A stretch of DNA of 30,066 nt. Origin: a virus. The notes beneath the pieces were generated by a model. The model made no database searches, had not been told where the DNA came from, and saw nothing but the letters and a program-made list of their open reading frames with translations. The DNA lies in the IMG/VR virus record IMGVR_UViG_3300031726_000034, positions 1 through 30,066 of that record. One strand, 5' to 3'. Each line of letters opens with the position of its first letter. Position 1 is the stretch's first letter. Position numbers and translations under genes: made by a program. Shown here piece by piece: positions 10,033 through 30,066 of the stretch.

Positions 10033-10305
10033 CTAGTTGACGGTGAAGTACCCGCAGTCCACGACCGGTTCGATGTCACCAACGAGGCCGGTGACCTTGG
10101 CCCAGATCCGCCACACTCCCGGGCTCAGCCCGTCCACGAGCACACCCATGCTGCCGTCCTCAAGAATCAGCGGGTCATCCCAGACGGTGGGGCGGGTGTG
10201 GTAGTCGGTCATGGCGATCTTGACCCCGACGGTGACCGGGGTGGTGCCGTCAAGGACCACGACCTGCTGAGGCTCGTTGGTCTCGCGGGGGTAGTCGTTG
10301 ACCAT
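10033..10305 (-). CDS. Small beta-sandwich virion protein, 90 aa
   Basis: The protein begins MVNDYPRETNEPQQVVVLDG; the ATG overlaps the stop of the repeat protein by one base (TGATG). The sequence alternates hydrophobic strands (TPVTVGVKIAMTDYH, SMGVLVDGLSPGVWRIWAKV, VVDCGYFTVN) and looks like a single Ig-like or baseplate-upper-protein-like beta domain. It follows the long repeat protein and probably works with it on the virion. No specific function can be assigned. Confidence 0.6.
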   Translation of the reverse strand: MVNDYPRETNEPQQVVVLDGTTPVTVGVKIAMTDYHTRPTVWDDPLILEDGSMGVLVDGLSPGVWRIWAKVTGLVGDIEPVVDCGYFTVN

Positions 10306-13145
10306 CAGGTTCCCTTCCCGGTGCCGACCCGCTCCGGCGGCAACGCGCCGGTCCAGCCGCGCTGGCCGAGCGCACCAACAGTGCTGCGTGCTCTCAGGTT
10401 AGTCCCGGTCCAGCGCCGTACCGGTAGCGAACCGCTCATGTCGACATCCGGTGGTGGCCGGTGCCCGATCACGGCCAGCAGCCCGCCGCCGGACAGGTCG
10501 GCGCTGCCCCCGATGGACACGGCGGCGGCCTCTAGGGTCAGGGACCCGTCCCCGGACAGGACCAGCGGTTGGCTCGCGGCGATGATCGCGGTCAGGGTCA
10601 GGGACCCGTCCCCGGACAGTCCTGCCGCCGATCTGGTGCGGGGGGTGCCGCTGGCGCTCAGGGACCCGGCCCCGGTCAGGGTGGTGGTCCCGTAGGCGTC
10701 GATGTGCTCGACGGCGACGCCGGTGGCTCCCAGTGCGCCGGACCCGCCCAAAGTGGCGGTCCCACGGTGGCCGGGAGCGCCGCCGATCCCGAGGGTGCCC
10801 GCCCCGCTCAGCGACGCGGCACCGCTGGTGGTCAAGGACCGTGTGGTGCTCAGGGCGCCGGACCCGCCCAGTGTCGCCGCCGCAGCCACGGCAGGGACCC
10901 CGGAGGTGCTCAGGGTCCCCAAGCCGGTAAGGGTCGCGCCGGACCCGAGTCCCGCCGCGCCTGTTGCGCTCAGTGCACCGGAACCGTTCAGGGCCACGGC
11001 GACGGCGATGGTGGGGGCGCTGCCGGTCACGGTCAGGGTGCCCGCCCCGGACAAGGGCACGTTGGTGGACTGGCCCCCGACCACGATCAGGGCGCCGGAC
11101 CCGGACAGGGAGGCCGTCCCGGTGACGGTGAGGGCGCTACCAACCGGCCCGAGGGTGCCCGCCCCGGCCAGCGCCGCCGACGCAGCAGGTTTGGGGGTGC
11201 CGGTCGCCGACAGGGCGCCCGCCCCGGCCAGCGCGACCGAGCCCAGCAGCCCGGGTGCCCCTGCGCCACTGAGGGTGCCAGCACCGTTCAGGGCCGCCGC
11301 GCCGCCCTTGGGCCATGGCAGGCCCGTCAAGGTCAGCGCGCCAGACCCGCTCAAGGTGGCAGTGGTGTGGATCTCTGGTTCCTGCTCGCCGATGGCCAGC
11401 GTGCCGCCGCCGCTCAGGGTGGCCGCGCCGGAGTAGCCGAGGACCCCGGCGGCGGACAGGGTTCCGGTGCCGCTCAGCGTGGGAGCGCCGCTGATCGCGG
11501 GTCCACCCGCGAAGGCAAGGGTGCCCGCCCCGGACAAGGCGGCAGTCCTGAGGTAGCCCGGGACGCCGCTGACCCCCAGAGCACCAGCCCCGGACAGGGA
11601 CGCGACGGCGGTAATGGCGGGAGTTCCGCTGACCCCGAGGGCGCCGGAACCGGACAGGGCGAGCGTCCCGGTGTAGCCCGGCATCCCGGCCAGCCCGAGG
11701 GTCCCCGACCCGGTCAAGGCTGCCGTGCCCGTGTAGCCCGGCATCCCGGTCAGGCTCAGGGTCCCCGACCCGGTCAAGGGGGCCGTGCCGGGGATGGCCG
11801 GGGCTCCACTGACGCTCAGAGCACCGGCCCCGGACAGGGTGTCCGCGCCGCCGGGTGCTGGCACCCCGGTGGTGTTGAGCGCCCCCGCACCGCTCAGGCT
11901 CACCGTCGCGGTGATCGCCGGGTTGCCCACGGAGGCGCTCTGGGTGGACGTTGAGCCGTTGGCGGCTCCGGTCCATGCGTAGGTCAGGGCCGGGGCTGCG
12001 GCTGTTGAGCCGTCGAAGTAGGCACCCACTGTGCCCGACCATTCGACCAAAACCGAGTCGATCTCCACGTAGTCGCCGATGCTGCCGGATGCGGCCACGT
12101 CCACATCCACCCGCAGGGTGGTGTTGCCTGCCGGGACGGTCCCCGAGTAGGTGACCCGCTGGTAGGAGCCGGTGATCGCCGTGGAGCCGCCAAGGATCTC
12201 ACCGGACACGTCCCACAAGGCCCGCATGGCGACGCTACGTCCGGTGGTGCCTCGCACGTACGCCGAGATGGAGAACGGCTGGCCGACGCTGACCGCGAAG
12301 GTCTGGCCGGTCAGGATGAACCTTCCGGTCGTGGTCGCGGTCAGCCGTGCGCAGCGGTCACCGGCCCACCCGGCGCCACCGCTGGGGTTGGTCACGGTGG
12401 GACTGCCGCCGGAGCCCCACACGCTCCACCCGGCGGTGTCTGTCTCAAAACTTGGGTTGGTGCACTGGTTCGTGCGGGTCACCACGGCGTTGAACGACAG
12501 GGCGCCACCGCCGCTGAGCGTGCATGTCCCGGTGATCGCGGGGGCGCCGACCGCCATCCGGGGCGCCACCGAGTAGGTCCGCAGTTGGGAGAACTCGGGG
12601 TAACTGCCAGCGCCGAGGGTGAAGGTCCCGGCGGGGGCGATCGCCGGGTAGTACATGTCGACCCCGGCGCCGACGTCGTTGGGGATGCCCCGCCCGAAGA
12701 CGGCGAACACGTCCCCGGCGCTGACGGTGACTCCGGCAGGCCACGTCACCACGTTGCTGCCCCCTGCGCTGAGCAGCGGCGGAACGGTCAGCGTCCCGCT
12801 GTCCCACGCCACGGTGTACTGGTTCAGGGTGCCGGTGGGGTGCAGAACGTAGGCGTTGAACGTGTAGCCCGCCGAGCCGCTCTGGTTCCACGTCTGGAAG
12901 TCGGCCAACACCCCGGCAGGCAGCGGGGTGTTCAGCAGCGCCACAAGAACCAGCGGGGAGGTGTCGGTTGCTGAGGCGCGATCGGCGGACACCGAGTTGC
13001 CGTAGGTCGCCGGGCCGAGCAACAGCGTGCCGCTGCCACTGAACGCACCCGCCCCGACAAGTGGGGTGTCAAGGGTGTAGATCCCTGAGCCGTCCTCCAA
13101 CAGGAGGCGGTCGGTGCCAGATTCCAGCAGGTAGCCGTCACTCAT
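10305..13145 (-). CDS. Long tandem-repeat virion surface protein with carbohydrate-binding-like module, 946 aa
   Basis: Residues 1-45 form a short N-terminal region (LLESGTDRLLLEDGSGIYTL). Residues about 45-200 look like a beta jelly-roll (LVLVALLNTPLPAG, SAGDVFAVFGRGIP). Residues about 226-375 resemble a CBM4/9-type galactose-binding fold: TNPSFETDTAGWSVWG, then FSISAYVRG and YVEIDSVLVEW. Residues about 416-902 contain about 24 units of 18-24 residues with consensus LSGxGxLxxxGxP plus about 7 variable residues. Single degenerate units also lie before the CBM (about 28-45 and 206-225), so the module is nested in the array. The array is unusually rich in Gly, Ala, Ser and Thr and probably folds as a beta-solenoid or extended fibre. 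The C-terminal 45 residues are basic. The gene lies between the capsid and neck genes, so it could be a capsid fibre or a tail fibre. Its Ser/Thr-rich repeats are possible acceptors for the glycosyltransferases encoded upstream. Confidence 0.8.
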   Translation of the reverse strand: MSDGYLLESGTDRLLLEDGSGIYTLDTPLVGAGAFSGSGTLLLGPATYGNSVSADRASATDTSPLVLVALLNTPLPAGVLADFQTWNQSGSAGYTFNAYVLHPTGTLNQYTVAWDSGTLTVPPLLSAGGSNVVTWPAGVTVSAGDVFAVFGRGIPNDVGAGVDMYYPAIAPAGTFTLGAGSYPEFSQLRTYSVAPRMAVGAPAITGTCTLSGGGALSFNAVVTRTNQCTNPSFETDTAGWSVWGSGGSPTVTNPSGGAGWAGDRCARLTATTTGRFILTGQTFAVSVGQPFSISAYVRGTTGRSVAMRALWDVSGEILGGSTAITGSYQRVTYSGTVPAGNTTLRVDVDVAASGSIGDYVEIDSVLVEWSGTVGAYFDGSTAAAPALTYAWTGAANGSTSTQSASVGNPAITATVSLSGAGALNTTGVPAPGGADTLSGAGALSVSGAPAIPGTAPLTGSGTLSLTGMPGYTGTAALTGSGTLGLAGMPGYTGTLALSGSGALGVSGTPAITAVASLSGAGALGVSGVPGYLRTAALSGAGTLAFAGGPAISGAPTLSGTGTLSAAGVLGYSGAATLSGGGTLAIGEQEPEIHTTATLSGSGALTLTGLPWPKGGAAALNGAGTLSGAGAPGLLGSVALAGAGALSATGTPKPAASAALAGAGTLGPVGSALTVTGTASLSGSGALIVVGGQSTNVPLSGAGTLTVTGSAPTIAVAVALNGSGALSATGAAGLGSGATLTGLGTLSTSGVPAVAAAATLGGSGALSTTRSLTTSGAASLSGAGTLGIGGAPGHRGTATLGGSGALGATGVAVEHIDAYGTTTLTGAGSLSASGTPRTRSAAGLSGDGSLTLTAIIAASQPLVLSGDGSLTLEAAAVSIGGSADLSGGGLLAVIGHRPPPDVDMSGSLPVRRWTGTNLRARSTVGALGQRGWTGALPPERVGTGKGT
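10440..11900 (-). repeat. About 24 tandem in-frame repeats of roughly 60 bp
   Basis: The period is mostly 60 bases, with some units of 54-72, and encodes the LSGxGxL unit of the 946-residue protein. On the plus strand each unit shows a conserved core resembling gccccggacagg or gacccggtcaag, with divergent sequence between. Copies differ enough at the DNA level to be readable individually, apart from close pairs such as around 11680-11790. Confidence 0.93.
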
Positions 13146-17499: not shown

Positions 17500-18200
17500 G
17501 GTGACTGCACCATTTCGATGGTGACCGTTCCGGCGCTGGCAGGGGTGACGGTGGCGGTCATCAGGGGAACGAACCCCAGCCGGGCGGCGAAGGTGACGGT
17601 GTACGGTCCGCCTTTGGGGCCGGTGACCTGCACGTCGTGGGTCCCTATCGGGCTCCCCATAAGACTCCACCGGTGCGACCCGGCCAGACTCCACCGGTGC
17701 GAGCCCCTGATGTCTCCGGGCTGCCAGTTTCCTGCCATGGTGCCGACGAGGGCCTGCTGAATGACGACGGGGTCGGGTCTCTTGTTGGACGCGGCGGCGA
17801 CCGTGATCGGCTCGGTGCTCCAATCACCGATGGACAGCGTGAACGTCGCCCCCCACGGGGTGTCGCTGAGGGTGATGGTCTGGATGACGGGAATGAGTTT
17901 GCTCAGCCCGGAGATCAGGACGTTGACGTCTTGGGTGTTCAGGGCGGTGACCGCATAGACGATGTCCTCAGTCTCCACCGGCAAGGGGGAGTCCCCGGTG
18001 TTCAGGTCGAGGAACAGGCTCTCCCCTGCGGCGACGGGCCAGCCGGTGGCCGTGGTGACATCAGGACCGCCGAGGTACACCGTCGCGCCTCCGGGCGGGA
18101 CTTTCACCGCCAAGGTGGCGCCCGGGATGGCGTCCGGTTCAGGCTCGTGGAGTATGGTCGCGCTGACCCCGACGGTGACCACGCTCGCTCGCAGGCTCAT
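17496..18200 (-). CDS. Beta-rich virion structural protein with 8-aa internal repeat, 234 aa
   Basis: The ATG overlaps the GT4 stop by four bases. Residues 1-90 form a small beta domain with VKVPPGGATVYLGGPDVTTA and TGWPVAAGESLFLDL, a pattern common in phage structural and decoration proteins. Residues about 100-170 form a second domain (IQTITLSDTPWGATFTLSIG, then a helix DPVVIQQALVGTM). Residues about 170-195 hold two copies of GSHRWSLA/M followed by GSPIG, an insertion before the last strands. It is co-translated with glycosyltransferases before it and the beta-helix protein after it. It may be the base or adaptor of that appendage. Confidence 0.65.
   Translation of the reverse strand: MSLRASVVTVGVSATILHEPEPDAIPGATLAVKVPPGGATVYLGGPDVTTATGWPVAAGESLFLDLNTGDSPLPVETEDIVYAVTALNTQDVNVLISGLSKLIPVIQTITLSDTPWGATFTLSIGDWSTEPITVAAASNKRPDPVVIQQALVGTMAGNWQPGDIRGSHRWSLAGSHRWSLMGSPIGTHDVQVTGPKGGPYTVTFAARLGFVPLMTATVTPASAGTVTIEMVQSP
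17662..17709. repeat. 24-bp direct repeat, two copies
   Basis: The 17-base core agactccaccggtgcga occurs at 17662-17678 and again at 17686-17702, a 24-base period. Each copy contains the palindrome CACCGGTG. It encodes the GSHRWSL repeat in the 234-residue protein. Confidence 0.9.
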
Positions 18201-19354
18201 GGCGTCAGCCTAGAATCCGGGCACATGTGATGCGAGGCGCCACGCGGCGTTGACAGTGCGCGGCGGCGCAGGGCACGGGTGACCTCATCGGTGTAGGTGT
18301 TCTCCCAGTCCCGCCAGCGGACCCTGATGTCTTGGGCGCGGACCCGCAGGTAGGCGCGTTCGGCAGCCTGCTCGCGCCGGGCCGGGTCGACCAGTGAACG
18401 CAGGCCATCCATCCACCCGGCGGGGGTGCGTGCCAGCGGCCCGCCGCCGAACCATCGCTGCTCGGGTAGGTCGGCGGCCACGAACGGGATGCCCGCAGCC
18501 GCGTACTCCATGGCCTTGATCGCAGACTTGGCCCGGTTGAACGGATGGTCGGCCAGCGGCACGATCCCGATGTCGAACCCGGTCACGATGCCCGGGTAGT
18601 CGATCACCGGGACCAGTGGCATCGACGGGCCGCGCCGGTGGGCGGGGATGTGCAGGGCGTCGTAGGCGGACGTGTCGCCGGGGTGCAGGGCGCCGTGGTG
18701 CACGAACGTCCCATCGACCTCCTCAAGGAACCCGGGCAGGACCCCGGCGAGGGTCTCAAGGTCTCCCGAGCGCCACGGTGTGGCCCCGCACCAGCCCACG
18801 ACCAGTCCGCTGCTGACCGGGCGCACCGGGTAGTGGGCAAACGCGGGCAGGTCGATCATGTTCCGCAGGGTCCGCACCCGGGTCCCTTTGGCCCGGTAGT
18901 GCCCGGCCAGATACGGCGTGGAGCAGGTGGCCATGGTCGAGGCGGCGATGGCAGCGGCGTAGTGCTCCCGGTTGACGTCGGGGTGACGGGCCGGGTCGGT
19001 CGACTCATACGCCCGGTTGGTGGGGTGCAGCCGGTCAAAGTGGTCGTCGACGTCGTTGATGACGACCTGCCCGAAGGTGCGCGCCTCGGCGATGTGCGCC
19101 GGGGCAAGGTGGTGCATCCATCGTTGCAGCACCACCACCTGCGTCGGCTCTAGGGTCAGCGGGCGGTTCTGATCGTCGATCGGGATGAGTGCCCCGTCGC
19201 GGCGCCCGGCGACCCCCACCCCGACGTAGACCTCGTGGCCGCCGTACTGGTCCAGTGCCCCGGCGGGCTGGTGGACCCGTGCCCACCCGGAGCCGCCGGG
19301 CGCTGGGCCACGGTCGGTCTGGTAGTGGTCGGCGCTGATGAACGCGATCCTCAC
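18197..19354 (-). CDS. GT4-type glycosyltransferase, 385 aa
   Basis: I chose GTG at 19354 as start: it overlaps the previous stop as GTGA and follows GGGAGG by 7 bases. An in-frame ATG lies 15 bases further upstream. The N-terminal Rossmann half begins VRIAFISADHYQ with the Gly-rich GPAPGGSGWARVHQPAGAL. It continues QVVVLQRWMHHL and VVINDVDDHFDRL, an Asp-rich element also seen in other phage glycosyltransferases. The C-terminal half has SGLVVGWCGATPWRSGDL and then FNRAKSAIKAMEYAAAGIPF, the GT4 donor-binding helix with the conserved Glu. It should transfer a sugar from a nucleotide donor onto an unknown acceptor in the host cytoplasm. The acceptor is probably a virion protein, since the next two genes are structural and coupled by 4-base overlaps. 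Confidence 0.85.
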   Translation of the reverse strand: MRIAFISADHYQTDRGPAPGGSGWARVHQPAGALDQYGGHEVYVGVGVAGRRDGALIPIDDQNRPLTLEPTQVVVLQRWMHHLAPAHIAEARTFGQVVINDVDDHFDRLHPTNRAYESTDPARHPDVNREHYAAAIAASTMATCSTPYLAGHYRAKGTRVRTLRNMIDLPAFAHYPVRPVSSGLVVGWCGATPWRSGDLETLAGVLPGFLEEVDGTFVHHGALHPGDTSAYDALHIPAHRRGPSMPLVPVIDYPGIVTGFDIGIVPLADHPFNRAKSAIKAMEYAAAGIPFVAADLPEQRWFGGGPLARTPAGWMDGLRSLVDPARREQAAERAYLRVRAQDIRVRWRDWENTYTDEVTRALRRRALSTPRGASHHMCPDSRLTP

Positions 19355-19956
19355 CCGAACGCCTCCCATCCGGGCCACCCGGGGGTCCAGTCGAACACCT
19401 TGGGCTCGCGGGGGCCGCGCCCGATCCACGCCTCCGCCTCGTGCCTGTTGTCGTGGCGCAGCGGCGGCAGGGTCCGCAGGTACTCGTTGGTCGCCCACCA
19501 GAAGTTGCCCCCGAAGTACGGGGTGTCGACCCGGAACTGGGCGCCGGGGGTCAGCCAGTGGCAGCCCACCGCGTCCATGCCGCCCTCCATCTCGGCCACG
19601 CACGCCCGCCAGTTCCGCATCAGGACCGACATGGACCGGCGCCACGCGTCGTTGAACGCGCTCGGCGCAGCGGCGCCCTTGGTGTGGGTGTAGAGCGTCG
19701 CCCCGTCGAACTGTTCCAGTTCGGCGGCCAGCACCTCCAATGTGACCTGCTCCCAGCCCTCCGATGCTTGGGCGCACACCGCGAACTTCACGCCCGTTCC
19801 GTGCAGGAAGTCGATGACCGGGTCAGGGTTAGGCCCGACGATCCCGACCCGCAGTTCGGCGCCGAACCCGCTCTCACGCATCGCAGCCAGATGCTCACTC
19901 AGCGGCACGTACCACGAGCCTGCCGCGTAGACGTGGTGGTAGTTGCGGACCTTCAT
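19351..19956 (-). CDS. Putative glycosyltransferase-like protein, 201 aa
   Basis: The ATG at 19956 overlaps the methyltransferase stop (ATGA). The sequence has a Rossmann-like start, KVRNYHHVYAAGSW, then ATLYTHTKGAAAPSAFNDAW and RRSMSVLMRNWRACV. A distinctive PYFGGNFWWATNEYLRTLPP segment follows, then RHEAEAWIGRG. The HTKG---N--WR block resembles rhamnan-synthesis F-like glycosyltransferases, and the GGNFWWA block recurs in phage and capsule glycosyltransferases. I assign the class from these patterns and from the neighbouring GT4 and methyltransferase genes. The exact reaction is unknown. Confidence 0.65.
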   Translation of the reverse strand: MKVRNYHHVYAAGSWYVPLSEHLAAMRESGFGAELRVGIVGPNPDPVIDFLHGTGVKFAVCAQASEGWEQVTLEVLAAELEQFDGATLYTHTKGAAAPSAFNDAWRRSMSVLMRNWRACVAEMEGGMDAVGCHWLTPGAQFRVDTPYFGGNFWWATNEYLRTLPPLRHDNRHEAEAWIGRGPREPKVFDWTPGWPGWEAFG

Positions 19957-20546
19957 GGCCCGGCTTTCCTGATGAAGCACAGGTTGTGCCGGAACTCGAT
20001 GACCTCGATGTCCTTCTCCAACTGGGTCAGGGGGCTGCCCCGGAACTCGGGCCAGTTCACCCCGTCGCACAGATCCTTGAGGTACTCCATGGTCGGGGTC
20101 GGGCTGCCCATCTGCCACTCGGGCCAGTAGGAGGTTTGCAGGTCCTCGATGACGTAGGTCCCGCCGGGGTTCAGGTGGGCGAACAGGGTTTCCAGCGAGC
20201 AGATGATGTGGGCGGGCACGTGGGAGCCGTCGTCGACGATCAGGTCGAACGGGCCGTGTGTTGTGGCGACGTGGCGCAGGAACTTCGCGTCCGCCTGCGA
20301 GCCGCGCAGGACGCTGATCCGGGGCTGGTCGGCTTCCAGCCGGGGGGCGATGTCGATGCCGAAGATGTCGGCGCGCGGGAAGTAGTCCCGCCACATCAGC
20401 AGCGAGGCGCCGTCAAGGACGCCGATCTCAAGGACCTTGCCGATGGAGTCCGCCGCCGCGCCGAGGTGCTCCTCGTAGGCGCCGGTGTACTCGTGCGGGA
20501 CGGCTTTGTCGGTGCCGTACTTGATCGCCAGATCACGCAGGGTCAT
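19953..20546 (-). CDS. Class I SAM-dependent methyltransferase, TylF/MycE-like, 197 aa
   Basis: The protein begins MTLRDLAIKYGTDKAVPHEY, where KYGTDK is the N-terminal hallmark of macrocin-type O-methyltransferases that act on sugars. The SAM-binding motif is VLEIGVLDGASLLMWRDYF with GIDIAPRL as the acidic second strand. Further motifs are DLIVDDGSHVP and a late GGTYVIEDLQTSYW. At 197 residues it is near the family size. Family members methylate hydroxyl groups on deoxysugars, so with two glycosyltransferases downstream it probably methylates the transferred sugar. There is no visible ribosome site; a 6-bp hairpin instead abuts the ATG. Confidence 0.83.
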   Translation of the reverse strand: MTLRDLAIKYGTDKAVPHEYTGAYEEHLGAAADSIGKVLEIGVLDGASLLMWRDYFPRADIFGIDIAPRLEADQPRISVLRGSQADAKFLRHVATTHGPFDLIVDDGSHVPAHIICSLETLFAHLNPGGTYVIEDLQTSYWPEWQMGSPTPTMEYLKDLCDGVNWPEFRGSPLTQLEKDIEVIEFRHNLCFIRKAGP

Positions 20547-21235: not shown

Positions 21236-22582
21236 CTAACCGAGGTCAACCTTGACGAACGACTCAGGCCGCTTGACCGCGAGCGCGAGACGCTCCTCAG
21301 CGAGGATCACCACAGCGTTGCGGACAAAGAAGTCCTCGTGCTGTTCGGCGATCCTGATGTTGGCCTCCTGACGGTCGTACAACTGGGCGCCAAGCCCAAA
21401 GGCACCCACCAATGCGGTGCCCTCGGTCATCGCCGGGGAGTCGACCACCGGGACCGACCACAGACGCGACTCCGCACCGATGGTGACGTTCGCCGTCACG
21501 GTGTAGTGCCCGTCCTCGCCCTTGCCGGTCTCGATGTCCTCCCAGTCTGAGGGGTGGACCACGATGCCGGTGGCGTCGTAGTACGCGAGGATGACCTTGG
21601 TCAGGGCACGCCGGATGGTGTCCTGCTTCTGGTCGGTGACCGGCCCGGACGTGTGGCTGTACGTCTGGATGCCGGGGGTGTTCAGGACGCCGAGCAGGTC
21701 CTCGGAGGTCCCGGTGCCGTAGAGGATCTGGTGGTCCTCGGTCAGCCGCAGCCCGTAGAGCAGTTCGTTGTTGATCGTGCTCTGAAGTTGCGGCTCGTCG
21801 GCGAGCACGTTGCGGTGCGCGGCCTCCCAGTGCGCGATGGTCCGCACCGGCGCCTGAGCGGTCTCAAACTTCAGGCTGGAATGAGGCTTGAGCCCGAACG
21901 CACCGGCCTTGTAGTCCGGCACGACACTGGCGCTGGACGACAGGTCGAGACGGTTGGTGCCGAACCCGAGGACCCGGAAAAAGTCGATCAGGTTGCTTGA
22001 GGTGGCAGCCACCGGGAACAGGTCCCGCACCCGTGCGCGACGGAAGTTGCGGGGCACCATGGGGTCCAACTGCCGCCCGCCGAATCCCTCGGGGATAGTG
22101 CTGAACGTGGAGCCGGACATCCCGCCGTACACGTCCTTGGTGGACGTCTTGGTGATGTCCTGACCGTGGATCTCCCACGCCTTGGACATCGTGCCGCCGC
22201 CGGAGGCGCGCAGCGACTTGAACTCCTCGGACTCGGTGAACCGGGACCCGAGGTCCTTGCGGGCCTCGGCGAGGACGGCGGCGTCCTCGGCGCGCTGGGC
22301 GCCTGCGGCGGCGCGCACAGCGGCGGACTTGGCCTCAGGCTCGCCCATGAAGTCGACCATGGACGTGCCGAGACGCAAGTCGTCGAGGAGGGTTTTCTTC
22401 TCCCGGGCCGAGGCAAGGTTGGCCCGGAAGTCCTTGGCGGCGTCTTCGGGGACGTAGACGTTCTTGCCCTCGATCTTGAACTGGGACTGGGCGATGCGCT
22501 CGTTCTCGTCGAGCAGCGCCTTGATTTCTTCCTCAAGGGTTTTCGCGGCACCGCTGAGGGCGGTGTCTTCGGTGACAGACAT
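21236..22582 (-). CDS. Major capsid protein, HK97 fold, 448 aa
   Basis: The start is fixed by AAGGAAA 6 bases before the ATG (MSVTEDTALSGAAKTLEEEI). Residues 1 to about 130 are a helical, charged delta/scaffold domain (FRANLASAREKKTLLDDLRL) that the upstream protease should remove. The mature part has the HK97 layout: IPEGFGGRQLDPMVPRNFRR, VRTIAHWEAAHRNVLADEPQ, a long helix LQSTINNELLYGLRLTEDHQ, ILYGTGTSEDLLGVLNTPGI in the A-domain, and WEDIETG. It ends with RIAEQHEDFFVRNAVVILAE and the final strand ALAVKRPESFVKV. It lies immediately after the protease, separated by a 150-base leader with a strong hairpin, which is consistent with separate control for high output. I cannot tell whether chemical crosslinks form. 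Confidence 0.95.
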   Translation of the reverse strand: MSVTEDTALSGAAKTLEEEIKALLDENERIAQSQFKIEGKNVYVPEDAAKDFRANLASAREKKTLLDDLRLGTSMVDFMGEPEAKSAAVRAAAGAQRAEDAAVLAEARKDLGSRFTESEEFKSLRASGGGTMSKAWEIHGQDITKTSTKDVYGGMSGSTFSTIPEGFGGRQLDPMVPRNFRRARVRDLFPVAATSSNLIDFFRVLGFGTNRLDLSSSASVVPDYKAGAFGLKPHSSLKFETAQAPVRTIAHWEAAHRNVLADEPQLQSTINNELLYGLRLTEDHQILYGTGTSEDLLGVLNTPGIQTYSHTSGPVTDQKQDTIRRALTKVILAYYDATGIVVHPSDWEDIETGKGEDGHYTVTANVTIGAESRLWSVPVVDSPAMTEGTALVGAFGLGAQLYDRQEANIRIAEQHEDFFVRNAVVILAEERLALAVKRPESFVKVDLG

Positions 22583-22732: not shown

Positions 22733-23794
22733 TTATGCGGCGCCCGACTTCAAGGTCCCGTCGTCGTTCCACGTGTCGGGGATCTGGTCGGCCAGTTTGA
22801 GTTTGCGTGCTCGGTCGATGATGTGTTTGCGGACCGCCGCCCGCCCTGCCGCCCCGCCCTTGGCGCGGCCCACCGCGCGGATCGCGTTGGACAGGTCGGT
22901 TGGGTTGGCGATCGGATACCGGTTGCCGGGCATCGCCCCGACCACGTGGGCGTCGGCTTTGACCTGCATCGCGCCGATGGTGTGGCCCTTGCCCTCATCG
23001 GCGAGGTCGGCCCACAGGGCGTCGAGGATGGTCAACTCCGCCTCGGTGATGAGGGCCTTGCCCTCGGGGGACTTCTCCTCGGCGGCCTTCAGGGCGCACG
23101 CTTTCATGGCCATGCACTTGGCGCGGACCTCACCGGGCTGGTCGCCGTGCTGGGGGCAGACCTGAAACGGGATGCCTGCCCGCCCGGCGATGTCGGTCAG
23201 GTTCTCGACCTTGGGCGGGATGCCGCCTTGGCCGCCGACGATGTCCTTGACCGCCGACCATGCCTGCTGGGCGGACTTCACGCTCAGGGTCCCGGCCAGC
23301 GGCATCGCCCCGAACAGCACCGGGGAGAACTCAAACAGGTCCATGACCTTGATGTAGCGGACCCCGTTGGTGGTCTTGGACCCGCCGGTGGGCACGTTGT
23401 AGCCCACCGACCAGTTCTGCTCGTCGCCGTAGAACTGGACGTCCTCAAAGGCGTCGCGTCCGCGTTCGGTGTTGAGGTTGAACTGTGCCTTGATGACCAG
23501 AGCACCGGCCTCGGGCGGCCACGCCTTGCCCATCAGGGCCTTGGGCAGGTCGGGGTGGCCGGGCAGCAGTTCGCGCACGCTCAGGGTCTTGGCGATGGGC
23601 TTGTCCCAGTCGTGGGAGTACACACCTTTGGGGGTGCGGGCCTGCAACGTCTTCTCGTAGGCCCCGGGCATGATGACGTCGTTGACGTTGTCCTTGATGC
23701 CGGTGACCGAGACGATGCACTCCACGATGCCCTCGGACGGGCTGACGACGTGGAAGTCGTTGACCGGCAGCGCCTTGTGCTCCATGGTTTCCAT
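22733..23794 (-). CDS. Prohead (capsid maturation) protease, HK97/U35 type, 353 aa
   Basis: GAAGGAG lies just before the ATG at 23794, three bases after the stop of the large multi-domain gene. The N-terminal half has the family pattern: FHVVSPSEGIVECIVSVTG, DNVNDVIMPGAYEKTLQ and GVYSHDWDKPIAK with the catalytic-type His61. NWSVGYNVP (Ser129) and MDLFEFSPVLFGAMP (Ser157) follow. A Cys-containing segment follows (about residues 212-236). The C-terminal domain (YPIANPTDLSNAIRAVGRAK, HIIDRARKLKLADQIPDTW) is a small helical domain often found attached to actinophage head proteins. It should cleave the capsid delta domain and then itself. Confidence 0.92.
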   Translation of the reverse strand: METMEHKALPVNDFHVVSPSEGIVECIVSVTGIKDNVNDVIMPGAYEKTLQARTPKGVYSHDWDKPIAKTLSVRELLPGHPDLPKALMGKAWPPEAGALVIKAQFNLNTERGRDAFEDVQFYGDEQNWSVGYNVPTGGSKTTNGVRYIKVMDLFEFSPVLFGAMPLAGTLSVKSAQQAWSAVKDIVGGQGGIPPKVENLTDIAGRAGIPFQVCPQHGDQPGEVRAKCMAMKACALKAAEEKSPEGKALITEAELTILDALWADLADEGKGHTIGAMQVKADAHVVGAMPGNRYPIANPTDLSNAIRAVGRAKGGAAGRAAVRKHIIDRARKLKLADQIPDTWNDDGTLKSGAA

Positions 23795-23797
23795 TAC

Positions 23798-26700
23798 TCA
23801 CTCCTTCGCGGCGGGCGGCGCCGGTGGTGGTGTCGGTGCGGGTGGGGTCTGTTCCGGGGGAGTGGGTGGCTCGGCGCCGGGGACGGGACTACTCCCGTCG
23901 CCGTCAGGTGCGGGAGCCCCGTCAGTCTGTGGTGGCGGCTCGGGGGATGCCTCCACGAGGGGGAAGTCGAGCACCTCGTTGCCGATGGCAAGGGACAGGA
24001 AGTCGAACGACAGGTCCCGGTCGGCGACCTTGGGCAGGTCGCCACCCTCCTTGTCGTAGGCCAGCGTGATGTGCGGGGTGAACCCGTGAACCTGCGAGAC
24101 CGCGAACCCGTCACCGTTCAGGGCGTCGGCGACCTTCTGCCGGGCGGCGTTCAGGCCGGGAGCGTCGACGTTGGCGTAGACCGGGTCGCCCTCGGCGGGG
24201 TCGCCGTTGAACTTGCCGACCCCGTTGATGGTGCCGTCGATCGGGCCGATCCCGGCGGCGGTCGCCGACACGAGGTTGGACAGGTCGTCAAGGTCGGCTG
24301 GCTCGTAGTCGCTGATCTTGCCGAGGTAGGCGAGTGTGACGTGCAGGTCGGAGTCAGGTAGCCCGCCGGGGACCTTCAGGGCCTTGGCGCTGTCCTCGTC
24401 GGGGTACAGGGCGACCATGATGGAGTCGGAGAAGTCGGGGTCGTCAGGGCCGGGATCGTCAGGGCCATCCGGCTCGGCGCCGGGCTGGTCGGTGGTCTCG
24501 GTGGGCTGGGTGTCGGCCTTGTGCTTGCCCCGCCCCGGGCCTTCCATGCCGGGTGCGACCCCGAGGGCCTCCCGGTGGTAGACGTTGCACAGCCCCTCCG
24601 CGCGCACGCCCACGTACGGGCGCAGTTCGCGCACGCACCTGTCAAAGTCGTGGGGCACACCCCACTTGATCTTGGCGGCGCCCTCACCGTGGACCCAGTA
24701 TTCGCGCAGCCGGGTCGCGCCCGGGTTGGCCGATGGGCGGGACGGTCCGGGGGCCGCCCGGTCGGCTTTGCCCTCGGGCACCCCGGCGCCGGTCGAGGTG
24801 TCCGGCACCGGCATCGTGGTGTGGAAGATGCGGGACTGCTCCATCGGCGGGTTGTCCACCCAGATCGCGCCGTCCAGCAGCGGGGCCACCGCCTCAAAGT
24901 TCAGGCCGGAGCGGGACTGGTACTTGTGCCCGGTCATCGGGCTGATGGACTGTTCGGCTTGGCTGACACCTTGGGAGGTGGAGACCCGGCTCGGCACGTA
25001 CCGGCCCGCGAACGGCCCGCCGATGGTCTCCGGCGGTGCCATGTGGCGCCCCGCCGCGTTGATGATCGACTGCCTCAGGCTCCCGTCGACGAACAGGCCG
25101 CGCACCTGCTCGTAGCCTGCGTCACGCAGGTGGGTGACTTTCCTGCTCTCGTTCTGGACGTCCTTGTCGGCGAACGTCCCGTCAAGGATCACGTTGACGC
25201 CCTCGTCGTAGAGCCGGTCCCGCAGCAGGTTCTTGAGGTGACGCGACTCGCCGTGCAGCAGCGAGGCCGCTTCCAGCGGGCCGATGCCGTACTGGGAGGC
25301 GTACTCGCTGGGCTGCAACCCGGCGCGGATGATCTCCTCTTTCATGTCGTCGGGGTTCAACGTGGCGAAGTTCTTTCCGGCGCCGTCGATCCCGATGCTG
25401 CCGCCCTGCTGTTTCAGCACGGTGGTCTTGCCCGACCCGGAGGGGCCAGCCAAGATCAGCGCCCGCCGGTCCCGGGGGACGTCGGCGTAGCCCGCCATGA
25501 TGGAGTCGATGAGCCGTTTGTGCGTCTGGGCACGCTCGGTGGACCACAGTTCCGTCTGATCGCCGTCGGCGCTGGCTGGCAGCGGGTTCCTGTCATGGAT
25601 CGTGGTGGTGTCCCCGAGCCCGGCGGCGGCCTCTTTGAGGCGGGACTCCAACTGCTCGCAGTATTTGTCGTAGGCCGGGTCGGAGCGGGGGTGCCATGAG
25701 GGCCAGCGTGAGCCCCACGGCTGACCGTCTGGGCCGTTGCCCGGGACCGGAGCCCCGAAGTCGATCCCGCCGGGCTTGGCGACCTTGAGCATGGCCTTGC
25801 GGATCTTGGCCTCTTGGGCGTAGTCCCCGGACTTGGCTGCTGCCGCCCACACGTCCCGGGCCTTGGCGTAGTTCTCCGGCTGGGACAGGTCCACGGACGG
25901 GTCGAGGGGGTCAAAGTTGGTGGGGGTGGTGACCATCCGCCCGGCAAGGTTCTGCTGGTCGGAGAGCATCTCCTCGGTCGCGTCGGCTGCGGTGGCGATG
26001 TCGCCCTGTACGGTGCCCGGCTGTTTGGCCAGCGCCGCGTCCGGCGCCGCTGCGTCGTAGGCGTCAGAGTAGGTGCCCGGCCACGCCATCTGGCGGTCAC
26101 GCTTGGGCCTTCCCGCAAGGGCGTCCGTTCTGCCCGCAGCCTGCGCCTCGTCCATCGACCAGTTCATTTGCTCGTCGATGCGCGCCTTTTCGGCTTGGCG
26201 TGCGGGAGTCTGGGCGCGCTCATGGGCCGTCGGGGGCGCCTTAGGCTTGGGTGCTTCCGGCTTGGGGCCACCCTTGGGCGGGATCGGCTCCTGTGCGATG
26301 TCCGCGCCGGTGATCCCTACCGACTTGATCCCGACCGCAGTGGTGAACGCCTTGGTGTAGTCGAGGGCCTCACCGATGTCCATGTCGAGGACCCGGACCG
26401 GTATCGACAGGTCCCCGAGGTGCCCGTCGGCGGCGTCGATGTTCACGAGCATCGCCCACCGGTGGTGGCCGTCGACGATGTACCCGTCGCGGGTCACCGT
26501 GATGGTGCCCTCAGGGATGTTGCCTGCCTCCATCGCCCGGGTCATCCCGGCGACCTGCGAGCCCTTCAACTCGCCTTGGGAAGCGCGCAGGTGGGAGGCG
26601 AGCACGTCCTTGTTCTCCACGCCGATCCCGAGTTCCTCAAGGGCCTTGAGGAACTCGGGCATCATGTCGACCTCGCCCCGGGCGTCGGGGGTCTTCTGGG

Positions 26701-28480
26701 CGGCGATGGAGCCGGGCTCGGGCTCGCCGGTGACCTGCGGCATCTGCTGGCGGGGGATGCCGAGGGTCTCGGCGCAGAACAGGTTGGTCCCCGGGACCGA
26801 GACGTTGCACAGGTTGATGACCGGCGCCTTTTCGCCCTTGGCGACGGCGTCGTCGACCATCACGTTCAGGATGTCCAGCATCGAGGCCACCTCGTCGGGC
26901 TGGTGGAGCCGTACGTGCTTGTCCTCGGCGAGCAGTTTCAGCGCCAAGTTCAGGTCGCCCTTGACGTCGATCGGGTCGTCGACGGTGCCAGTGGCCGGGG
27001 GTGAGGGACGGCCCTCGGTGTGCGGGACGGTCGAGATCGCCGACTGTGCGACACCGGACACGCTGGCGGCGGGCGCGTTCGGCAGGGTGTGCGGCGGTTC
27101 CACCCGATGCGGCAACGGGGCGGTGCCGAACGACGTGTCGGTGCCGGGCTTGGGTGCCTGCCCGGTGCGCTGCGGCGGGTTCGGGTTCTTGGGTTTCTTG
27201 CCGGGCTCCGGCTTGGGGCCGGTCTCCCGGGCGCGTACCTGCTCGGGGGTCCTGCCTGCGGGGGCTTCCGGTTTGGCGGCGGTGTCCTCAGGCATCTTCA
27301 TGCCCGGCGGGAGCCACCCGGGCGCCATCCACGAGTCGCGGCTGTTCAGCCCGTCCCACGCCCGCTGGCGTTCCTGCAACTGGGCGTCGGTGAACGTGGC
27401 CCTGATCCGGTCCTCTTGGGCCTGTGCCTCGGCGGGGTCGCTGGGGGCGCTGCCCTGATCTGGGGTGCTCGCCCCGGCGCCGGGCTGGCGCGCTCGCAGC
27501 CGCGCCCGCTCGTCAGGAGTCAGGGACCCGGGCGGCTCGTAGCCTCTGGGGTTGGGCGGGGCGAGGACGTCTTGGGGGTTGATGAGTGCGGCGACGGCCA
27601 TCTCAGCCGAGCCCTGCGGATTGGTGTCGATCTGTTCCATGAGTATTTGGGCGGCTTGGACGCGGTCGACATCGTTGCCACCACGGACCGCCATGGAGTA
27701 CCGGTCGGTCTCACTCCGCAGCGGGCCACGGGGCAGGCTCTCTACGATCCTGTCGAGGTTGTACGCCTGCGCGACACGTTGACGCCGGTTCGCGCGGGCG
27801 ACCGCACGGCGCTCGTGCCCGGGCGCGCGTGCCTCGTCCGCGTTGATCGGGCCTTGGGCTGCGGCGGGCACCGTGGCGTGGGAGACCAGTTGGCTCACCC
27901 GGCCACGGAACGACGCGTCGCGGGCCGCCCCTGCGGCTTGGGCCTCTGGTGCCTTGGGTGCAGCAGGGGTGTGTGGGGCTTGGATCTCCCGGGCGCCGCC
28001 CGGCGCGGCGGGCGGCTCCGGGGCGGCGCCACGGTGCCCGGTCGCGCCAGCATCGGGGATGCCGCCGTAGCCGAGACGGTCCACGAACCGGCCCTCAGGG
28101 TCCCTGACTACGAGGGCCTCACTGAACCCCCGGGCGCCCCACCATCCGCCGATGTGGATGCCGCCGGTGACCTTGCCGAGCCCGCCGAGTTTCTTGACCT
28201 CCACGTCGTCCAGTTCGCCCTTGGCGGCCCGGGCGGCGTCGTCGGCCATGGCGCCCATCTGGGCGAGGTAGGTCACCGCCTCAAGTTTCAGGTCATCGGG
28301 TGCGGCCTTGCCTGACGGCAGCCGCAGCAGGTCCATGGCGACCTGCTGGATGTCGGTGGTCCCCAACGCGTGGGCGACCTCATCGAGGGTCCGGGCCAGT
28401 CTCCCGTCGGCGAGGCGGATGTCCCACGAGTTACCCCGCAGCCAGTCCTCGTTGGTGACGTCGTCGATGTAGGTACTCAC
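23798..28480 (-). CDS. Giant multi-domain protein: ParB-like, zeta-toxin-like kinase, 2H phosphoesterase (1560 aa)
   Basis: GTG at 28480 follows AGAGG by a few bases. Residues 1-145 are an unrecognised domain with GGIHIGGWWGARGFSEALVV. Residues about 500-720 form a ParB/sulfiredoxin-like domain: KLLAEDKHVRLHQPDEVASM, VSVPGTNLFCAE, then the YIVDGHHRWAM motif (671-675). Residues about 1000-1220 are a zeta-toxin-like kinase: Walker A GPSGSGKTT (1012-1020), LNPDD (1041-1045), HGES (1076-1079), VILDGTF and GRYVPSRV. Residues about 1258-1312 are a small domain, WVHGEGAAKIKWG with Cys1282 and Cys1298, which I recall from actinophage head-gene clusters. Residues about 1350-1510 are a 2H phosphoesterase with HVT (1380-1382) and HIT (1470-1472). 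Pro/Ala-rich linkers separate the parts and end the chain. All three enzyme signatures look intact. No antitoxin gene is adjacent. Position between the ART gene and the protease suggests a head-internal, co-injected protein. That role is inference. Confidence 0.85.
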   Translation of the reverse strand: MSTYIDDVTNEDWLRGNSWDIRLADGRLARTLDEVAHALGTTDIQQVAMDLLRLPSGKAAPDDLKLEAVTYLAQMGAMADDAARAAKGELDDVEVKKLGGLGKVTGGIHIGGWWGARGFSEALVVRDPEGRFVDRLGYGGIPDAGATGHRGAAPEPPAAPGGAREIQAPHTPAAPKAPEAQAAGAARDASFRGRVSQLVSHATVPAAAQGPINADEARAPGHERRAVARANRRQRVAQAYNLDRIVESLPRGPLRSETDRYSMAVRGGNDVDRVQAAQILMEQIDTNPQGSAEMAVAALINPQDVLAPPNPRGYEPPGSLTPDERARLRARQPGAGASTPDQGSAPSDPAEAQAQEDRIRATFTDAQLQERQRAWDGLNSRDSWMAPGWLPPGMKMPEDTAAKPEAPAGRTPEQVRARETGPKPEPGKKPKNPNPPQRTGQAPKPGTDTSFGTAPLPHRVEPPHTLPNAPAASVSGVAQSAISTVPHTEGRPSPPATGTVDDPIDVKGDLNLALKLLAEDKHVRLHQPDEVASMLDILNVMVDDAVAKGEKAPVINLCNVSVPGTNLFCAETLGIPRQQMPQVTGEPEPGSIAAQKTPDARGEVDMMPEFLKALEELGIGVENKDVLASHLRASQGELKGSQVAGMTRAMEAGNIPEGTITVTRDGYIVDGHHRWAMLVNIDAADGHLGDLSIPVRVLDMDIGEALDYTKAFTTAVGIKSVGITGADIAQEPIPPKGGPKPEAPKPKAPPTAHERAQTPARQAEKARIDEQMNWSMDEAQAAGRTDALAGRPKRDRQMAWPGTYSDAYDAAAPDAALAKQPGTVQGDIATAADATEEMLSDQQNLAGRMVTTPTNFDPLDPSVDLSQPENYAKARDVWAAAAKSGDYAQEAKIRKAMLKVAKPGGIDFGAPVPGNGPDGQPWGSRWPSWHPRSDPAYDKYCEQLESRLKEAAAGLGDTTTIHDRNPLPASADGDQTELWSTERAQTHKRLIDSIMAGYADVPRDRRALILAGPSGSGKTTVLKQQGGSIGIDGAGKNFATLNPDDMKEEIIRAGLQPSEYASQYGIGPLEAASLLHGESRHLKNLLRDRLYDEGVNVILDGTFADKDVQNESRKVTHLRDAGYEQVRGLFVDGSLRQSIINAAGRHMAPPETIGGPFAGRYVPSRVSTSQGVSQAEQSISPMTGHKYQSRSGLNFEAVAPLLDGAIWVDNPPMEQSRIFHTTMPVPDTSTGAGVPEGKADRAAPGPSRPSANPGATRLREYWVHGEGAAKIKWGVPHDFDRCVRELRPYVGVRAEGLCNVYHREALGVAPGMEGPGRGKHKADTQPTETTDQPGAEPDGPDDPGPDDPDFSDSIMVALYPDEDSAKALKVPGGLPDSDLHVTLAYLGKISDYEPADLDDLSNLVSATAAGIGPIDGTINGVGKFNGDPAEGDPVYANVDAPGLNAARQKVADALNGDGFAVSQVHGFTPHITLAYDKEGGDLPKVADRDLSFDFLSLAIGNEVLDFPLVEASPEPPPQTDGAPAPDGDGSSPVPGAEPPTPPEQTPPAPTPPPAPPAAKE

Positions 28481-28493
28481 GGTGACCTCTCAC

Positions 28494-30066
28494 TCATGGC
28501 TTGTGCCGCCAGTCGTCGGGCAGTTTGGCTCCGGGCAGGGAGTACATGCCGCTGTCGAGCATCGCGGCCAGTTCCATCCGGCGGGCTTGGTCCCCGGTGC
28601 TGATCCCGTACACCTCGCCGTACATCTCGGCGCTGACGGCGTCGTACAGGTCCCGGGCGGTGCCCGCCTTGATGTCGGCGATGGTCATGGCCGCCGCCCG
28701 GCGCATCCGCTCGGCCTTGCGCTCGGCGGAGTCCTCGTCCTTGGCCCCGTCGAACGTCAGCCCGTCCTCGGACAGGCCGGTGTTCTGCGGCCACCAGTCG
28801 GCGGGGATGAACCCGGCCCACCCGCCGCGATCACGGGAGCGTTCCATCAGGGCGTCGCGGCGCTCCTGCGTGGAGGCCATACGGATCGCGGTCTGGAAGT
28901 CATCTTCGCGGTCGATCGCGCCCGCCGGGGTCCGGTCCGCCTCGTCCTCGGTCATGGGCGGGATGACGCTGGTGCGGACGGCCACGTCCAGTTTCCCACC
29001 GAGGACCACGACCTCCCACTCGTTCAGGGCGCCGACACCGGTGCGGGGGGTGGCGATGATCCGTTCGACCGGGACGGTCGTGCCGACCACGACGTTGACC
29101 TGTTTGCTGGACCCCTGCCCGCTGTTGCGCCCGAACTGGTCGGCGGTGTCCCGGTCAAGGGTCCATGAGGACATCGGTCGCAGCGCGATGGTCGTGTCAC
29201 CGTCGACCTGCGCCCAGTCCGGGGCTATCTCGGGGGCTTGACCCGCCCAGCCCATGCCCCGGTACACGGTGACCTCTTTGATCCCGGCGTCGGCGTACCG
29301 GCGCTGGGTCAGGTCGTACTGGGCTTGCAGGAACGCGGTGATCGCCTCGCCCCGGTCGGCTTTGATCTGGTCGATCTCGGCCCGCACCGTCTCACCGCCG
29401 TAGGTGCCGTGGCCAACGTACTCAAGGTCCCAGTCGGCGTGGTCGGTGATCCCGAACAGTTCGGCGGCGATCTCTTGGATGGCCAGCGACTCAGGGGAGG
29501 AGTCGTTGGAGGACTGCGCCCACTGGGCGACCATCGAGTTGACGACCTGCCCGCGCCGGAACTCACGCACGCGCGGGTCATCCAGCGGGACCGTGTCGTA
29601 GTAGTCGGAGTCATACCCAAGACTGCTACCCACCTTGACAGGCTTGGGTGGCGGGCCTTGGACGCCGGGGATCTTGTAGACCGCCGCCTGAAGCGACAGG
29701 GGCTCCCCGTTGCTGTCCACGGTGGCGGTGAACCCGTCGTCGACGCCCCGGAACATGACCTCGTCAGGGACCTGCTCCATCTCGTGGCCGATGTCGGCCA
29801 CGACCTGCGCCTTGGCCTCGTGGCGCATGTCCTCAGAGACAAGGTGGTGGGTGGTCGAGGGCACAGGGGACAGTTGGTCAGGGTGGAAGTCCATCCCGAC
29901 CGTTGACGGCAGGTCCTTGAGGTTGAAGTCGGCCCACTGCTGCCACGCGAACGTGTGCTCACCCCAGACGGGGGTCTCCATGTCCGCCCGGCTCGGCATG
30001 TCGGCCACGGGCTTGCCCGGGGTGTTCCACGTCGGGGACGTGGGGGTCTCGTCGATCGGCCCGGCG
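28494..30066 (-). CDS. ADP-ribosyltransferase domain protein (partial, N-terminus beyond right edge)
   Basis: The frame is open to the right edge, so the GTG at 30008 need not be the start. I number from that GTG. Residues about 150-340 hold an R-S-E class ADP-ribosyltransferase: a helical lead-in (QYDLTQRRYADAG), EVTVYRGMGW with Arg250, ALRPMSSWTLDRDTADQF with Ser280-Ser281, and VGALNEWEVVVLGG with the Glu330-x-Glu332 catalytic pair. ExE is typical of arginine-modifying enzymes. The C-terminal 160 residues are charged and helical without a known motif. In related phages such domains lie at the end of MuF-like head morphogenesis proteins between portal and protease, so the missing part may be such a domain. 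It precedes the giant enzyme-array gene by 13 bases. A packaged, injected effector role is likely but unproven. Confidence 0.82.
   Translation of the reverse strand, partial: AGPIDETPTSPTWNTPGKPVADMPSRADMETPVWGEHTFAWQQWADFNLKDLPSTVGMDFHPDQLSPVPSTTHHLVSEDMRHEAKAQVVADIGHEMEQVPDEVMFRGVDDGFTATVDSNGEPLSLQAAVYKIPGVQGPPPKPVKVGSSLGYDSDYYDTVPLDDPRVREFRRGQVVNSMVAQWAQSSNDSSPESLAIQEIAAELFGITDHADWDLEYVGHGTYGGETVRAEIDQIKADRGEAITAFLQAQYDLTQRRYADAGIKEVTVYRGMGWAGQAPEIAPDWAQVDGDTTIALRPMSSWTLDRDTADQFGRNSGQGSSKQVNVVVGTTVPVERIIATPRTGVGALNEWEVVVLGGKLDVAVRTSVIPPMTEDEADRTPAGAIDREDDFQTAIRMASTQERRDALMERSRDRGGWAGFIPADWWPQNTGLSEDGLTFDGAKDEDSAERKAERMRRAAAMTIADIKAGTARDLYDAVSAEMYGEVYGISTGDQARRMELAAMLDSGMYSLPGAKLPDDWRHKP

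Follow-up and report, generated by a model that had tools for sequence, protein, structure and literature searches.

Results

A 1560-codon gene adjoins the prohead protease gene

The window, by which we mean the entire 30,066-nt stretch analysed (IMG/VR record IMGVR_UViG_3300031726_000034), is a 30-kb metagenomic contig from which portal and terminase genes are absent. Its minus strand carries, in this order, an ART-like gene, a gene of 1560 codons, a prohead protease gene and the gene of the major capsid protein (MCP). The prohead protease (S78; 22733..23794, minus strand) and the HK97-type MCP (21236..22582, minus strand) were identified by Pfam and PHROG matches. The 1560-codon gene (23798..28480, minus strand) begins with GTG, and a Shine-Dalgarno-like GAGAGG is located 5 nt upstream of this codon. 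The ART-like gene ends 13 nt before the GTG and the stop codon is followed after 3 nt by the ATG of the protease gene, spacings that indicate that the three genes are tightly coupled.

The ART-like gene (28494..30008, minus strand) encodes 504 aa in a frame that continues without a stop as far as the contig edge; the position of its start is therefore uncertain, and its 5' end may be cut. The product yielded a sub-threshold match to the DRAT model (21.4 bits; cut-off 25), contained R/S/ExE motifs by reading, and was 34-38% identical to ART-like ORFs at loci L187 and L189. Of the two flanking genes named in the earlier note, the prohead protease was thus substantiated, and the ART rests on the sub-threshold DRAT match and the reading of motifs.

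Two other regions of the window were of interest. Between the capsid and tail genes, positions 18197-20546 encode glycosyltransferase-like (phrog_7162) and methyltransferase-like (phrog_21658) proteins, which possibly modify the virion. Further along, positions 10305-13145 encode a 946-residue protein with degenerate 'LSGSGTLsvsG.P.i' repeats, and the DNA at 11650-11819 has a period of 60 bp.

To characterize the long frame, we examined its codon-position GC content. A coding-type pattern extended over nearly the entire 1560 codons: GC3 was 0.79-0.94, dropping to 0.66 in the final 50 residues, and GC2 was 0.40-0.78. The long antisense frames had the mirror pattern, with a GC1 of 0.84-0.91, indicating that the 1560-codon frame is not a GC artefact. 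The frame proposed from the letters of the sequence was therefore confirmed, as were the motifs noticed within it: DGHHRW at residues 670-675, GPSGSGKTT at 1012-1020, NPDD at 1042-1045, HGES at 1076-1079, and the paired HVT and HIT at 1380-1382 and 1470-1472, respectively. The long linkers described between the domains are indeed rich in Pro and Ala (P+A of 26-56%, versus 14-19% within the named domains).

The earlier note had assigned these motifs to three domains, ParB-like, zeta kinase and 2H phosphoesterase. Pfam matches and predicted folds bore out the latter two, and the ParB assignment proved weaker than claimed. A fourth module, phrog_6439, lies between the kinase and the 2H domain and had been missed. 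For the N-terminal segment (residues 1-145; 28046..28480, minus strand), no relative was found; more broadly, residues 1-540 had zero matches in 50,697 phage records, among which the first ~480 residues have no relatives. A scan of IMG/VR with the full 1560-aa protein returned no whole-protein relatives.

The zeta/PezT-type kinase

Residues 985-1225 (24806..25528, minus strand) matched the zeta toxin model PF06414 with an E-value of 3.7e-13 (49.8 bits; cut-off 22.3). In a profile search of the PDB, this segment matched PezT (1.7e-13), zeta (2.1e-12) and, at 3.2e-9, Pnkp1. A predicted model of moderate confidence (mean pLDDT of 68.7) was closest in fold to the zeta toxin (1gvn; Z=16.4), PezT (14.9) and AvrRxo1 (14.3), with Z-scores of at most 11.6 to polynucleotide kinases. 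The functional residues assigned to the domain are K1018, D1044, H1076, E1078, D1100, R1145 and R1160. All of these except E1078 were scored as conserved in the window and in 13 of 14 relatives; in the exception, L063, the Walker A lysine was not aligned. D1044, the aspartate of the NPD motif, aligns with Asp66 of PezT, the catalytic base, without which toxicity is lost (PMC3062530). With the Walker A lysine, the catalytic Asp and the two Arg residues in place, the domain belongs to the zeta/PezT kinase fold family.

Expression of zeta kinases leads to lysis (PMC3062530), and AvrRxo1 phosphorylates NAD as an NAD 3'-kinase (PMC5491322). By analogy, the substrate of the window kinase could be UDP-N-acetylglucosamine (UNAG) or, as for AvrRxo1, NAD. 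No epsilon antitoxin gene adjoins the kinase gene, whose neighbours across the 13- and 3-nt gaps are the ART-like and protease genes. We therefore did not class it as an epsilon-zeta toxin-antitoxin system.

One zeta relative emerged from a scan of genome contigs; it is carried by a short contig belonging to a Streptosporangiaceae MAG. Separately, the zeta-like ORF of L063 (1-2874), which lacks an alignable Walker A lysine and is perhaps a degenerate kinase, is located near a protein with two copies of phrog_6439.

The 2H phosphoesterase

Residues 1353-1510 (23951..24424, minus strand) matched PF13563 with an E-value of 2.1e-13 (51 bits; cut-off 27), and a PDB profile match was also obtained. 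In the predicted model, the 2H part had a pLDDT of ~95 and superimposed on a bacterial CPDase (5h7e) with Z=18.1, on E. coli LigT with Z of ~16 and on Acb1 with Z=11. The two HxT/S motifs, H1380/T1382 and H1470/T1472, within a 2H fold place the domain in the 2H phosphoesterase superfamily. The structure prediction proposed in the earlier note as a check was thus run on both enzymes, and it gave the P-loop kinase and 2H folds that had been read from the motifs. Membership of the Acb1 anti-CBASS family was rejected, as the domain scored 18.6 bits against a model cut-off of 27. The domain may nevertheless have an Acb1-like role.

The ParB-like domain

Residues 487-735 (26276..27022, minus strand) were assigned to phrog_2859 (E=3.9e-17). 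This domain is ~44% identical to domains in three other settings: the C-terminus of a phage portal protein, an XkdF-protease fusion, and part of a 2212-aa protein that also has inorganic pyrophosphatase, ART-PolyVal and polyA-polymerase domains. The relatives fused to phage portals argue that the domain is real as a family. Its DGHHRW sequence (670-675) agrees with the GHHR active-site motif of the ParB/Srx superfamily, and many relatives have Gln in place of the Arg. Matches to PHROG ParB profiles were weak, at E=0.0067 for the window domain (phrog_1033) and 1.6e-4 for the best family relative. By contrast, the Pfam ParB models gave no match to the domain at E<=1, and a PDB profile search returned chance matches only. 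Judged from the motif and the weak profile matches, the relationship to ParB is therefore only remote. The DdrB-like reading first suggested by the motif was rejected: PF18763, PF02195 and PF08857 had no match in the window, PF18763 had none in the window or the relatives at E<=10, and hhalign against P1 DdrB gave no match.

The phrog_6439 domain

The fourth module (residues 1247-1318; 24527..24742, minus strand) is a helical domain with a profile match to phrog_6439 at residues 1255-1313 (E=1.3e-22). The family, of ~65 residues, has no Pfam model and occurs in at least 214 phage records and 550 IMG/VR stretches. It is common in actinophage head proteins, is frequent in capsid maturation protease/MuF proteins, and is at times present twice per chain. 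Solo phrog_6439 genes of 68-96 aa also occur outside the structural region, near genome ends (Kamaru gp97, Farewell gp94), and these weaken the reading of the domain as a pure capsid tag. Further sites were recorded at L009 2983-3189, L011 2974-3225 and 80 IMG/VR loci (L020-L099). In addition, the C-terminal ~80 aa of the prohead protease of the window (22733-23794; 'NRYPIANPTDLSNAIRA...IPDTW') recur as a module in many phrog_6439 proteins. Widespread yet unrecognized by Pfam, phrog_6439 is an open target.

The modules are distributed differently among the head genes of relatives

The closest capsid proteins among phages, with 51-59% identity, belong to Gordonia bendigoviruses and to Brevibacterium phage Cantare. 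In Gordonia phages GMA6, Hanem, UBSmoodge and DalanDe and in Cantare, the interval from portal to MCP holds modules as separate genes. A 2H 'RNA ligase' gene was present in this interval in all five genomes; a VIP2-like ART was present in GMA6, Hanem and UBSmoodge but not in DalanDe or Cantare; and phrog_6439 was found in GMA6 ORF15, Hanem, UBSmoodge and Cantare gp12, with none seen in DalanDe. The interval in these capsid kin also contains large proteins bearing HNH and/or HExxH motifs.

In metagenomic relatives whose capsid proteins are 43-48% identical to that of the window, the zeta kinase resides in the protein directly preceding the capsid gene. In IMG/VR 3300028711_000013, the order is portal, MuF-like, 2H + phrog_6439, a 2115-aa protein comprising protease, ParB-like and zeta domains, then an MCP of 43% identity. 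In 3300044835_000092, ParB-like and zeta domains share a 2657-aa frame directly before an MCP of 48% identity, and in 3300005341_000018 a zeta ORF directly precedes an MCP of 47% identity. Other phages contain fusions to structural proteins, namely portal + ParB-like (777 aa) and ParB-like + XkdF protease and, in more distant phages, minor-capsid-2 + zeta and MuF + phrog_6439 + 2H. A search for phages with the same or a shuffled domain order thus recovered shuffled orders, and the single-chain order of the window did not recur in the ~270 loci examined. The window alone among these loci has ParB-like, zeta, phrog_6439 and 2H domains in one chain, in keeping with the original remark that the combination was unfamiliar.

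During this comparison, we observed a ~22-residue segment ('VRt.eGa.+YG.PIGs.It' or 'VRDAeYWG.PVGTPIt') that recurs in 12 distinct instances in the capsid-kin phages, within otherwise unrelated head-region proteins (ART, HNH/HExxH, protease, 6439-LysM and protease-zeta). It was located at L017 8796-9974 and 9941-13000, L016 11124-14042, L018 9649-12600 and 19558-21786, and L185 1346-7690, as well as in L013/L015 and L007; none was present in the window proteins examined. The segment is a candidate virion-address or processing tag. A different pairing was encountered in Mycobacterium phage Phrappuccino gp57 (L002 5397-8663) and in a 1753-aa ORF of the IMG/VR relative L272 (3477-8735), where a segment that is ART-like by motif reading is combined with a C-terminal zeta kinase. 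These proteins appear to represent a second route to the pairing of ART and kinase.

Discussion

The 1560-aa protein carries a zeta kinase and a 2H phosphoesterase, both above Pfam cut-offs, so that at least two conflict-type enzymatic domains occur in one chain of a mobile element. Its gene lies among late virion genes, adjoining those of the prohead protease and MCP. On balance, we favour the interpretation that it is a head-region polyvalent protein of an actinobacteriophage that is packaged and delivered with the DNA. Association with the head is very likely: the same modules occur elsewhere in portal, MuF, minor capsid and prohead protease chains, the catalytic residues are intact, and the position just upstream of the capsid gene is found in the lineage. 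Injection with the DNA is probable.

We infer packaging, processing, ejection, substrates and a benefit along the following lines. The protein would be expressed late as one chain in which ParB-like, zeta-type kinase, phrog_6439 and LigT-like 2H domains are joined by flexible Pro/Ala linkers. It would assemble into the procapsid together with the neighbouring ART protein, perhaps be trimmed by the adjacent prohead protease, and leave the particle along with the DNA. In the host, wall synthesis would slow as the kinase phosphorylates UDP-N-acetylglucosamine or a related nucleotide metabolite; 2',3'-cyclic or 2'-5' phosphodiesters, in either RNA ends or defence signals, would be the targets hydrolysed by the 2H domain; and the ParB-like domain would bind or cut NTPs or DNA. 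A more ambitious version, which we regard as doubtful, is that the one packaged chain strikes several host nucleotide pools together with a co-packaged ART, these pools being UDP-sugars/NAD (kinase), 2',3'/2'-5' or cyclic signals (2H) and NTP/DNA (ParB-like), with phrog_6439 acting as a widespread head-association module of actinophages through which such cargo is recruited.

The protein might instead be made late and act, unpackaged, in the producing cell, where, for instance, the kinase might aid lysis by draining wall precursors and the 2H domain might process RNA ends or signals. The position in a late operon is compatible with either use, and the lysis that follows expression of zeta kinases (PMC3062530) would suit this role. 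However, other phages have these modules in covalent fusion with portal, MuF, minor capsid and prohead protease proteins, which makes their presence in those particles likely, and we consider action solely in the producing cell unlikely for the window protein. Another function to be weighed is the healing of RNA ends, in which a 5'-polynucleotide kinase and a 2H 2',3'-cyclic phosphodiesterase would repair RNAs cut by host anticodon nucleases. The fungal tRNA ligase Trl1 has the order kinase-CPDase. The window protein likewise has a kinase followed by a 2H domain, the former with a profile match to Pnkp1 and the latter closest to LigT/CPDases. The kinase fold, however, is nearer to zeta/PezT and AvrRxo1 (Z of 14-16) than to polynucleotide kinases, no ligase domain was found, and in relatives zeta and 2H domains occur in separate proteins with other partners. 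A Trl1-like repair enzyme, with a kinase of the polynucleotide-kinase type and a ligase, was accordingly disfavoured, and RNA end healing in general is improbable.

It is also distinctly improbable that this is a structural head protein whose vestigial enzyme domains serve as filler or scaffold. Such an origin would accommodate the long low-complexity linkers and the unaligned catalytic lysine of L063, but, low as the sequence identity is, the window protein and nearly all relatives retain intact catalytic residues in the zeta and 2H domains. Finally, the many long antisense frames raised the question of an assembly chimera or a chance frame in high-GC DNA. This explanation is very improbable and is largely refuted by the continuous codon-position pattern, by its mirror image in the antisense frames and by the capsid-kin contigs, in which ParB-like and zeta domains likewise share a single chain.

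Comparison with known systems

The enzymes of the window protein have known counterparts. The kinase has its fold and catalytic residues in common with zeta/PezT toxins and AvrRxo1; unlike these, it lies inside a phage head-region protein and without an epsilon antitoxin gene. The 2H domain shares its fold with the Acb1 anti-CBASS nuclease and with LigT/CPDases, but is closer to LigT (Z of 16-18) than to Acb1 (Z of 11) and falls below the cut-off of the Acb1 model. Fusions of MuF to a VIP2 ART have been described in Microbacterium phages (PMC7302621).

Among phage proteins, Streptomyces phage Abt2graduatex2 gp11 and phiSAJS1 gp17 and Gordonia phage RiverRaider gp18, which are MuF/capsid-protease fusions with a 2H 'RNA ligase', share with the window protein the placing of phrog_6439 immediately ahead of 2H. 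Unlike the window protein, they have no zeta or ParB-like domain; moreover, Abt2graduatex2 gp11 has a MuF domain and the window protein does not. Like the window protein, Phrappuccino gp57 and the L272 ORF are large and contain a zeta kinase (34-36% identical), in their case C-terminal, and gp57 is encoded in the late region. They differ in that the ART-like segment precedes the kinase and in lacking 2H, phrog_6439 and phrog_2859 domains. The 2115-aa ORF of 3300028711_000013 is from capsid kin, with modules of the same kinds in the equivalent interval; by contrast, its modules are carried on the prohead protease, its 2H-6439 unit is a separate gene and its ParB-like domain is of a different subfamily.

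Within one capsid lineage, zeta kinase, 2H, ART and ParB-like modules have thus been re-dealt among head genes. The window protein illustrates concretely how a single head-associated chain might serve actinophages to deliver several enzymes, and the cultured relatives with split versions (GMA6, Hanem and Cantare) make the question of packaging accessible to ordinary virion proteomics.

The class to which the protein is closest is that of the polyvalent proteins (Iyer et al. 2017, PMC5512222), in which, as in the window, several conflict-type enzymatic domains occur per chain and are encoded among virion genes. In the part of that article drawn on here, MuF is described as a fusion partner of zeta kinases, and MuF or portal as partners of 2H domains; the roles suggested are weakening of the wall by the kinases and, for the 2H domains, RNase activity or signal degradation. 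The exact ParB-zeta-6439-2H combination is not described in that part, and the ParB-like domain of the window does not belong, by Pfam model, to the DdrB-ParB family of these proteins. The same modules being fused or dealt differently in the head genes of relatives, we view the window protein as a polyvalent protein with a new combination of domains, and probably as a new arrangement of an already known kind of enzyme cargo. The idea of packaged multi-enzyme proteins was itself already in print in 2017 (PMC5512222); what is new here is the combination of domains and its evolutionary setting.
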